Assembly (NCBI GenBank): GCA_900637675.1
Contig: LR134389.1
Location: 372,001-436,000, forward strand
Direction of reading: 5' to 3'
Source of the DNA: Streptococcus equi subsp. equi
Lineage (GTDB): Bacteria; Bacillota; Bacilli; Lactobacillales; Streptococcaceae
DNA length: 64,000 bases
Shown here: piece after piece, positions 13,496 to 15,160 of the stretch
Layout of the letters: each line of letters opens with the position of its first letter
Position numbering within the stretch: the stretch's first letter is position 1
Program-made: the position numbers and the translations under genes
The notes under the pieces: model-generated
Databases searched by the model: none
What the model was told of the DNA's origin: nothing
What the model saw: only the letters and a program-made list of their open reading frames with translations

Positions 13496-13571
13496 AATCC
13501 TATTGTAACACAGATTGTCTGAATTGGTTGAACCCTGCGTCCGATAGGATTTGTTAAAGCATGCTTTGTGA

Positions 13572-13809
13572 TTTATACCTTATAAAGAGGCTGTGACAAC
13601 TGCTCATGACATGTTAGAAAATGTTCTTGCTGCTTATATTGATTGTGGTCTGAATTTACCAGTTCCTACAAGCTGATTCAACACCATTTATCAAAAATAA
13701 TAAAGCTGTTCGTAAAACTGTTACCGTTTCAGAGTGGTTGGTTAGATTAGCTGACCGCGAAAAGGTTAATGACTCTGAGGTATTGACAAAGGCACTTGAA
13801 CGTAAATGA
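13572..13809 (+). pseudogene. HicB-family antitoxin remnant
   Basis: Two adjacent frames encode pieces of a HicB-like antitoxin. The first reads KEAVTTAHDMLENVLAAYID and ends at LPVPTS with TGA. The second resumes as DSTPFIKNNKAVRKTVTVSE and continues WLVRLADREKVNDSEVLTKALERK to a stop at 13809. The second part resembles the C-terminal DNA-binding part of HicB. The 5' end is missing and no hicA is present. I judge this a decayed toxin-antitoxin locus, with no functional product expected. Confidence 0.65.
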
Positions 13810-13902
13810 CAAGTATAAAAAGGTTCTCAGTCTTTGCTGAAGGCTTGTGTCCTATCGTGGGGTTTTAGTTGCTGATATGTTATCAAAAAAGGAGCAAAAA
13901 GC

Positions 13903-13931
13903 TTGACTTTAGTAACCGCTTACATTATAAT
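13903..13931 (+). promoter_or_regulatory. Near-consensus promoter of the RYKNGD small-ORF unit
   Basis: TTGACT (13903-13908), exactly 17 bases, then TATAAT (13926-13931). It lies 53 bases before the first small ORF and is one of the best promoter matches in the window. Confidence 0.75.
13911..13924. promoter_or_regulatory. cre-like site in the promoter spacer
   Basis: AGTAACCGCTTACA matches the catabolite-responsive element consensus TGWAANCGNTNWCA except at the first base. It lies wholly between the -35 and -10 elements, where bound CcpA would block transcription. Function is inferred. Confidence 0.5.
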
Positions 13932-13983
13932 AAAGATGTAGATAAGGACGACCGATGACACTGGAGTTATAGGAGGATATCTG

Positions 13984-14025
13984 ATGATAACAAGACATGT
14001 CGCGCGGTACAAAAATGGAGATTAA
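13984..14025 (+). CDS. Small ORF 1 of the RYKNGD set (13 aa)
   Basis: Encodes MITRHVARYKNGD, starting 7 bases after a perfect AGGAGG (13971-13976). It shares the residues RYKNGD with two ORFs downstream in the same transcript. One inserted base after GAT would extend it to a tail (IKSSNKR) resembling that of small ORF 3, so it may have been longer. I do not recognise it. Expression is inferred from the promoter and ribosome site. Confidence 0.4.
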   Translation: MITRHVARYKNGD

Positions 14026-14170
14026 GAGCTCCAACAAACGGTAGGCAAAACCAATTTTACAATTTAATATGTGATCACATGTGAAGGCTTATCGAGATTA
14101 CCAGCTTTGGCCAAAGGAGCGCTCTAAACAGTATAAGCTTGAAATTCCCGTTATTGAAAGGACGTATGCT

Positions 14171-14212
14171 ATGCTAAGATTCAATAAAGGACGCTATAAA
14201 AATGGAGACTAG
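14171..14212 (+). CDS. Small ORF 2 of the RYKNGD set (13 aa)
   Basis: Encodes MLRFNKGRYKNGD and stops directly after the shared motif, like small ORF 1. GAAAGG lies about 9 bases upstream. Conservation of RYKNGD with synonymous codon differences (TAC/TAT, GAT/GAC) between the three ORFs suggests selection at protein level, or old duplication. Confidence 0.38.
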   Translation: MLRFNKGRYKNGD

Positions 14213-14329
14213 TTGCTGTGTCACTAGTCGTCCTTGATATTGTTATTGGCACTCAGGGTAAAGGATTGAGCTTATTTGAAAGGTAGCTATCATCAGATAG
14301 CTAGTGAGCTTTTCTAATAGGAGGGTCTT

Positions 14330-14383
14330 ATGTACATCGCAAGATATAAAAACGGAGACATTGAGCACGACAGCAAAAAATAG
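14330..14383 (+). CDS. Small ORF 3 of the RYKNGD set (17 aa)
   Basis: Encodes MYIARYKNGDIEHDSKK. It is preceded by AGGAGGG (14319-14325) and by a perfect 7-bp hairpin (AGCTATC-ATCA-GATAGCT) at the upstream junction. It is the longest of the three and has an acidic/basic tail after the shared motif. Function unknown. Confidence 0.4.
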   Translation: MYIARYKNGDIEHDSKK

Positions 14384-14517
14384 CTGAAGGAGTGAGTCCA
14401 ATGTAAGCCAAAATAGCACAGTGCTAACAAACGAAACTCAAGAACAGTCATATTCTTTTAATAACCGTTCATTTTGTTAAACAGAAAGGAGACGACTGAT
14501 TAGACAGATAAGTATGT

Positions 14518-14535
14518 GTTCCTCTTTAGAGGAAC
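14518..14535. other. Perfect hairpin in the small-ORF transcript
   Basis: GTTCCTC-TTTA-GAGGAAC is a 7-bp perfect stem with a tetraloop, 65 bases before the terminator. No T tract follows, so it is not a terminator itself. Confidence 0.45.
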
Positions 14536-14599
14536 AATTGACAGGTGACTCCTTATTAAATGGCAGATAGAAGGGAGAATAGCACTCAAGACATGATAA

Positions 14600-14624
14600 G
14601 GACACCCGGTTGGGTGTCCTTTTT
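14600..14624 (+). terminator. Strong terminator of the small-ORF unit
   Basis: GGACACCC-GGTT-GGGTGTCC is a perfect 8-bp GC-rich stem followed by a T run. With the promoter at 13903 it defines a transcript of about 690 bases. Confidence 0.85.
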
Positions 14625-14767
14625 GCTGGTGTCTGGATTTGACCTTGCCACTAAGACCTGCAAGTCAGGTGACTAAAGGTCATTTCTATAGAAGTGGCTT
14701 TGCTTTTTATGGAGCTACGAAGGGATCTAAGAAGGTCTTTTATTCAACAGAAAGGTCAACATTTTGC

Positions 14768-14796
14768 TTGCTTTTTACCTTTGTTTATTGTATACT
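14768..14796 (+). promoter_or_regulatory. Promoter of rpsF-ssb-rpsR
   Basis: TTGCTT, a 17-base spacer and TATACT. The leader to the rpsF start (about 70 bases) contains a stem, ACTCGTTAC pairing with GTAGCGAGT, in the place where ribosomal protein S6/S18 autoregulation would act. Confidence 0.65.
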
Positions 14797-14870
14797 GTTA
14801 ATCTGTGAGCATACCTCACTTACTCGTTACAAGGGTAGCGAGTCATTAGACCAAAAGGAGGAAACTATCA

Positions 14871-15160
14871 ATGGCTAAATACGAAATTCTTTATATCATT
14901 CGTCCAAACATTGAAGAAGAAGCTAAAAACGCTTTGGTAGCACGTTTTGACTCTATCTTGACTGACAATGGTGCAACTATTGTTGAATCAAAAGATTGGG
15001 AAAAGCGTCGTCTTGCATACGAAATCAATGATTTCCGCGAAGGCCTTTACCATATCGTAAACCTTGAAGCGACTGACGCTGTAGCTCTTAATGAGTTTGA
15101 CCGTCTGTCAAAATCAACGGTGACATTCTTCGTCACATGATCGTTAAGCTTGACGCTTAA
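14871..15160 (+). pseudogene. rpsF: 30S ribosomal protein S6, one-base frameshift near 3' end
   Basis: S6 binds S18 and 16S rRNA in the small-subunit platform. The start [18 protein letters not shown] and the body are normal up to NEFDRLSK. The frame then reads STVTFFVT and stops at 15140. Adding one A to the AAAA run at 15110-15113 restores [17 protein letters not shown] and a stop at 15160, giving the usual 96 residues. Because rpsF is close to essential and the 3' end is otherwise perfectly kept, a sequencing under-call is more likely than a true mutation. A strong AGGAGG precedes the ATG. Confidence 0.9.

Follow-up and report, generated by a model that had tools for sequence, protein, structure and literature searches.

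Short RYKNGD open reading frames in Streptococcus arrays and ahead of exported-protein genes: candidate regulatory mini-genes

Introduction

What might a transcription unit do that contains three tiny ORFs with one hexapeptide, RYKNGD, in common? Such a unit lies in a 64,000-nt stretch of the Streptococcus equi subsp. equi genome (contig LR134389.1, positions 372,001 to 436,000), referred to below as the window, whose positions are used throughout. A preliminary description of this DNA called the unit an orphan and named three roles, a peptide signal family, regulatory leader peptides and a small-RNA host, choosing none of them. We analysed the unit, its relatives in Streptococcus and single RYKNGD ORFs elsewhere in the Bacilli.

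Results

Layout of the unit in S. equi

The following features were located, all on the + strand.

13903..13931 (+): promoter TTGACT-17-TATAAT, agreeing with the consensus at 11 of 12 positions
13911..13924 (+): cre-like, putative CcpA operator AGTAACCGCTTACA, between the −35 and −10 elements
13971..13976 (+): SD AGGAGG of mini-ORF 1
13984..14025 (+): mini-ORF 1, MITRHVARYKNGD, 13 codons, SD-led
14016..14033 (+): short hairpin of the Gly-Asp codons of ORF1 with CTCCA behind them, fold −5.2 kcal/mol
14040..14048 (+): conserved noncoding element GGTAGGCAA
14171..14212 (+): mini-ORF 2, MLRFNKGRYKNGD, 13 codons, with SD GAAAGGA at 14156-14162
14203..14235 (+): hairpin starting in the Gly-Asp codons of ORF2, −12.7 kcal/mol
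14330..14383 (+): mini-ORF 3, MYIARYKNGDIEHDSKK, 17 codons, with SD AGGAGGG at 14319-14325
14354..14412 (+): fold from the ORF3 Gly-Asp codons over SD AAGGAG (14387-14392) to the ATG-stop ORF ATGTAA (14401-14406)
14548..14555 (+): ACTCCTTA, complement of the SD-type TAAGGAGT
14600..14624 (+): intrinsic terminator GGACACCC-GGTT-GGGTGTCC-TTTTT

The near-consensus promoter, the strong terminator and the three SD-led ORFs of the preliminary description were thus all present. To these our analysis added the cre-like box, GGTAGGCAA, the hairpins behind the mini-ORFs, the ATG-stop ORF and ACTCCTTA. The terminator region (14592-14630) folded with −18.2 kcal/mol; the terminator was not among the calls of a simple sequence scan. 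The RYKNGD codons differ among the three mini-ORFs, in agreement with the proposal that the similarity lies at the protein level. As had been stated, no larger gene accounted for the region: the unit is not covered by any ORF of at least 60 aa, and ORF2 has an alternative 43-codon extension from a GTG. The ATG-stop ORF at 14401-14406 is SD-led. The segment 14354..14412 folded with z −3.0, but of the consensus stem pairs no more than about half are retained in this window copy.

The codon pattern MGNTAYAARAAYGGNGAY, which describes the RYKNGD codons and also admits SYKNGD, had three matches in the whole 2.25-Mb genome, all within the unit, and none when the 722-nt unit was shuffled 20,000 times (mononucleotide shuffling). 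The window had no Rfam match, with weak matches only (best E 0.3) for 13850-14900. The PDB gave no relative, and phage records gave no match.

Two features of the flanks were observed in passing. The rpsF reading frame behind the unit (14871-15140, + strand) has only 89 codons; close to its 3' end the frame shifts, and the C-terminal residues normally found in the protein are encoded in a different frame, owing either to a true frame break or to an assembly error. Antitoxin gene fragments in two frames, which we take to be HicB-like, lie between mutY and the array (13560-13810, + strand).

Arrays in Streptococcus

A DNA search gave matches in 27 of 147 genomes of the genus, the window's own counted, and nearly all of these loci had several short RYKNGD ORFs each. 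The search of streptococcal genomes for such ORFs that the preliminary description had suggested was run with the codon pattern on 284 genomes. There was a match in 104, part of them SYKNGD within an ABC transporter, and 61 genomes had at least two matches on a single strand, versus two genomes for a reversed-pattern control (hand count). Clustering of the matches was seen directly in at least 48 of the 61; in one genome (G045) the two matches lay on separate contigs. Among 38 named records with VARYKNGD codons, 18 were streptococci, including S. uberis, S. gallolyticus, S. equinus, S. henryi, S. plurextorum, S. ictaluri and S. thoraltensis.

We studied 41 arrays, namely 40 loci from 40 genomes and the S. 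equi window. They carry two to eight motifs each, 151 in total. MutY was encoded upstream in 39 of the 41, at times with a gene or an IS between, so the label 'orphan' fails: the unit has a conserved place beside mutY. The gene rpsF followed in just 24 arrays and different genes in the others; the unit is therefore not dependent on rpsF. At the level of sequence, the array unit is conserved in many Streptococcus species.

The probability that RYKNGD is chance or decaying sequence is negligible. Two observations would fit decay. In one relative (L129, genome G154) ORF1 is frame-broken, with ORF2 and the promoter intact, and at two streptococcal loci an out-of-frame remnant of the motif was found (see below). 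Frame breaks in all three ORFs, which the preliminary description would have taken as its refutation, were not found in our comparison, which was made across species rather than strains. The absence of matches in shuffled sequence, the 61 genomes versus two for the reversed pattern, and the conserved promoter and RNA elements speak against this explanation, and the conservation found across the arrays already refutes it.

In two arrays (L127, L142), ATA stands at the expected start codon of the first RYKNGD copy.

Anatomy of the mini-ORFs

Three of the 151 motifs lacked a start codon, and the remaining 148 array ORFs were analysed. An SD of at least 5 nt preceded 140 of them. The Arg of the motif was the eighth codon in 96, the fifth in 27 and the seventh in 16, and the residue preceding it was A, G or S in 134. 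A stop directly followed Asp in 49 of the 148, and the residue after Asp is free.

Most copies had been found by the exact RYKNGD codon pattern (Ser admitted for Arg), so the invariance of the motif is partly by construction. A less biased count was therefore made of all ORFs in the 41 arrays that start with ATG behind an SD of at least 6 nt. The exact motif was present in 107 of them and a one-residue variant (RYKDGD, RFKNGD, RYRNGD, RYSNGD, RYKNCD, RYKNSD) in 12, and there were 30 others, 16 of which were ATG-stop ORFs. Only three of the others are 10 codons or longer. Of the 122 SD-led mini-ORFs with this minimum length, 119 thus encode RYKNGD or differ from it by one residue, and selection on the peptide is clear. 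Within the array motifs, codon usage was shifted from the background (CGG+AGG 39% vs 14%, GGA 66% vs 27%), with smaller shifts elsewhere.

The cre-like promoter and RNA elements

The promoter holding the cre-like box between −35 and −10 was the best promoter in 40 of the 41 arrays; in the exception, L129, the scan chose another place, and the array's own promoter was visible on reading the locus. In 23 of 41 arrays the box matched TGWAANCGNTNWCA at 10 or more of the 11 defined positions (shuffles: 1%). The cre-like site in its promoter would place the array in the CcpA regulon, with the site as a putative operator.

Several noncoding elements recurred. GTAGGCA was present in 38 of 41 arrays (best shuffled 7-mer: 25), GGTAGGCAA in 21, CCAATGTAA in 21 and ACTCCTTAT in 19 (best shuffled 9-mer: 9). 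These elements raise the question of whether the RNA itself is the functional product, with single-stranded GTAGGCA and ACTCCTTAT pairing with target mRNAs and the mini-ORFs serving RNA stability or timing. The conserved elements would be candidate seeds, from which the small-RNA role gained some support. Known catabolite sRNAs have cre-like control as well, and this feature would also fit, as would the unit's own terminator. We nevertheless consider this explanation unlikely: the peptide is the most constrained feature, RYKNGD recurs elsewhere without GTAGGCA or ACTCCTTAT, and there was no Rfam match.

At 37 places in 26 arrays the motif codons were followed by an SD-like GGRGTG and then by CC and usually ATG. 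The array hairpins enclose this SD, with an ATG-stop ORF behind it. In 21 copies of equal length, the SD-enclosing hairpin had a mean z of −3.6 (range −1.6 to −6.2). Covariation of the hairpin was considered and rejected: in a fixed register the 21 copies paired at 69%, versus 67% in column shuffles, with no significant double changes, and an alignment of 37 rows gave no consensus structure with RNAalifold. Folding 3' of the motif with z < −2 was found for 31% of the 148 array ORFs, compared to 9% of 46 leader ORFs (described below) and 7% of 125 random segments; the structure therefore belongs to the arrays.

Single RYKNGD ORFs before exported-protein genes

The scan of named records also matched Erysipelotrichaceae MAGs with very short RYKNGD ORFs. 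Four Erysipelotrichaceae genomes had 10, 2, 3 and 7 RYKNGD sites, and 30 of 195 genomes of the family had a match, with up to 10 per genome. We assembled a leader set of 48 rows, 46 from Erysipelotrichaceae genomes and two streptococcal, which represent 47 sites because one was entered twice; near-identical sequences in the set are a tandem pair in L183, and L169 with L205. Four of the 27 loci L185-L211 had been dropped for a long frame or a missing start.

The next gene was defined as an SD-bearing gene within 330 nt, and signal segments were scored by a simple hydropathy rule. All 36 next genes encoded an N-terminal hydrophobic signal or membrane segment, whereas among other ORFs of these loci 25 of 106 did so. 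The other 12 of the 48 rows had no next gene, some of them at contig ends. In a second batch, one repeated site being left out, 9 of 13 cases had a hydrophobic N-terminal segment encoded next. Two of the misses were streptococcal (L294, L295) and lie before a secreted lactococcin-972-like peptide; the L294 peptide was just below the hydropathy threshold and below the family cut-off, and that of L295 has a short start. The other two were an ABC ATPase gene (L288) and an ambiguous case (L303). Because RYKNGD ORFs elsewhere precede exported-protein genes, the leader-peptide role gained most among the three that had been named.

A class-wide sample of 398 genomes gave matches at 24 places in 23 genomes outside Streptococcus. 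We read 23 of the places, leaving out that in G832. One of them (L222/L308, genome G898, from another Bacilli family) has an SD, a TTG start and MVYLNSARYKNGD, followed by a 213-aa secreted protein, and is a genuine leader-type ORF; the other 22 look like chance. This case leaves the odds of the competing readings unchanged. Leader sites are thus mostly from Erysipelotrichaceae, with a few from streptococci and one from a further Bacilli genome. The leader-bearing streptococci G053, G045 and G145 had no array by the exact pattern, and therefore leader and array need not co-occur.

Codon usage in the leader motifs was skewed only at Arg, Asn and Gly (AGG 63% vs 11%, AAC 61% vs 18% and GGA 70% vs 37%, motif vs background), while Tyr, Lys and Asp codons were within about 8 points of background usage. 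At L179, RYKNGD is fused to a lipoprotein signal peptide.

Some further observations concern individual loci. The lipoprotein of L179 (1389-1613, − strand), whose N-terminus itself carries the motif (MVSRYKNGDRLILKFFCILLLILLPAC), stands behind a RYKNGD leader ORF. The out-of-frame remnant mentioned above (LVTIPDRYKNGDV) lies near position 1501 of L038 and L063, both streptococcal, before a membrane-protein gene. L077 and L087, two sites in one genome, have a common box AAAACGGTTGTTTTCCTATCTTG... upstream of their RYKNGD leaders.

Three other candidates were rejected. Terminator attenuation as a general leader rule was not retained, as a hairpin with a T-run was present in just 13 of 48 rows, many of them weak. 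The promoter scan before leaders was uninformative because 21 of 48 rows reached 9 of 12 positions and 31% of shuffles did so as well. Viral contigs gave 20 VARYKNGD matches, 19 of which look by eye like one phage protein, the other being in a long frame.

Does the peptide act in trans?

It is possible that the array is a multi-copy source of a RYKNGD peptide, a leaderless signal or intracellular effector, which would bind a cellular protein such as an RRNPP-type (HTH+TPR) regulator, with exported-protein operons having their own copy. This is the main rival to the reading that we favour. The peptide-signal role proposed before keeps some probability: HTH+TPR regulator genes stand beside a few RYKNGD ORFs, in at least two lineages. 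In the streptococcal genome G053 the adjacent regulator has an RNPP_C match above the cut-off, and at L077 (Erysipelotrichaceae) an HTH+TPR gene adjoins the ORF, and sequence that looks similar by eye is present at L087, L097 and L177. Bacteriocin-like and exported products are the usual targets of such systems, and tandem copies would fit a dosage role. At L296 (1462-4887, + strand), an RNPP_C regulator, a RYKNGD ORF, a 90-aa secreted peptide, an ABC permease and an ABC ATPase are encoded in a row, which looks like a bacteriocin-type operon.

A common RNPP_C or Rgg_C receptor was not found, however, as neither family is common to the carriers. RNPP_C was present in just 7 of 46 RYKNGD-carrier genomes; Rgg_C was present in six of the seven array genomes searched and missing from G078, and in most of 26 genomes the G053 regulator had at best weak matches. 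No Rgg/RopB-type gene was among the neighbours of the 41 arrays, based on family grouping of ORFs of at least 80 aa with partly assigned names. Mimicry of Rgg was also dismissed: the L061 match is RYKNGD within an Rgg C-terminal domain, and we take it as chance because the Rgg alignment shows that YKNGD is not a family feature.

The peptide itself is unusual for a pheromone, with one motif common to distant families. The usual RRNPP ligands have a fixed C-terminus, unlike the RYKNGD ORFs, in which the stop follows Asp in only the third of cases given above (49/148). The codon skew and the hairpins would be left unexplained. Leaderless communication peptides (LCP/SIP, which act with RopB) are described in PMC10518010 as mostly 8-10 aa, highly hydrophobic and distinct between species. 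Compared with them, the RYKNGD ORFs are similar in being very short, without a signal sequence, with a good SD, placed before exported products and, in few cases, adjacent to a regulator; they differ in being charged, mostly 10-20 aa, conserved and embedded in variable ends, and so fall outside the hydrophobic 8-10 aa class.

Discussion

A possible nascent peptide acting in cis

We tentatively favour the reading that RYKNGD is a nascent-peptide leader motif that acts in cis on its own ribosome, although our confidence in it stays somewhat short of even. The array unit would be transcribed as an RNA of its own, controlled by CcpA and consisting of repeated modules. Every module would be a strongly initiated mini-ORF, whose nascent [Ala/Gly/Ser]-RYKNGD would be complete 9-13 codons from the start and would slow or hold the translating ribosome around the Gly-Asp codons. 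In arrays, the slowed ribosome would open the hairpins that start in these codons and enclose the next SD; the array would therefore work as a serial RNA switch that depends on translation and is expressed when the preferred sugar runs short. Outside the arrays, in Erysipelotrichaceae, in a small number of streptococci and in one or more other genomes of the Bacilli, a single RYKNGD ORF would serve as leader to an exported-protein gene. In this scheme we infer repression by CcpA, translation and pausing, as well as the cue and the target of the switch.

The codon skew of the leaders, limited to Arg, Asn and Gly, and the array hairpins that start in the motif codons suggest that the act of translation matters, which led us to the cis model; the skew could have another cause. 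The fusion at L179 is likewise easier to explain in cis. Peptide conservation (119/122), the SD (140/148), the fixed early Arg, the folding of the arrays and the position of the leaders also argue for action in cis. Several findings argue against it. The leaders are without the array hairpin (z < −2 in the 9% of 46), and at the end of the arrays there are ATG-stop ORFs and a terminator but, on the same transcript, no gene that could be switched. A next gene is missing in 12/48 leader rows, the second batch has 4/13 misses, and attenuators are present in just 13/48. The free residue after Asp, the broken ORF1 in L129 and the compensatory changes, which were not significant, also weigh against it.

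It is conceivable, if rather doubtful, that all of this forms one polycistronic mini-peptide system. In it, a single RNA controlled by CcpA would repeat RYKNGD, a hexapeptide ribosome code, in as many as eight tandem ORFs; streptococci would have this code as a stand-alone array, and other Bacilli would have it in leaders of exported-protein genes across the genome, as a regulon.

Comparison with known systems

ErmBL, the CmlA leader and TnaC are arrest leader peptides. The nearest mechanistic analogue is the regulatory uORF toiL of E. coli (PMC12121999). Like arrest leaders and such uORFs, RYKNGD leaders are short SD-led ORFs at a 5' end with conserved residues near the start, and in the arrays RNA structure after the ORF may hide an SD. 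Unlike arrest leaders, the arrays hold up to eight copies in one RNA without a downstream gene, the motif is common to unrelated genes across families, and pausing at RYKNGD is only predicted.

The dual-function RNAs SR1/SR1P, SgrS/SgrT and Spot 42/SpfP each encode a single peptide. The array resembles them in its sugar-linked (cre-like) control, in being a small RNA with its own terminator and in its short ORFs, and differs in having two to eight ORFs with one motif. In Drosophila, tarsal-less/polished rice has several tiny ORFs in one RNA with a common short peptide motif; the resemblance is one of layout only, as that gene is eukaryotic and unrelated to the RYKNGD arrays.

RYKNGD was not found in the literature searched, and no paper on such an array was apparent from titles and abstract openings, bioRxiv preprints being outside the scope. 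The main text of a pneumococcal Ribo-seq paper (PMC9426450) has no YKNG, and PMC12323649 treats other pneumococcal sRNAs. The suggestion that this is an undescribed system therefore appears to hold.

Significance

The arrays and leaders together suggest a family of regulatory mini-genes, apparently one without an earlier description. That a conserved streptococcal system should have apparently gone undescribed may be because ORFs so short escape annotation, and RYKNGD offers a simple handle to find leader ORFs that annotation has overlooked. In streptococci, the array would tie catabolite control, through its cre-like promoter, to a motif that elsewhere marks exported-protein genes. Should RYKNGD slow ribosomes, it would represent a new nascent-chain code whose regulon is already at hand; should it act in trans, it would be a conserved peptide effector of a rare kind.
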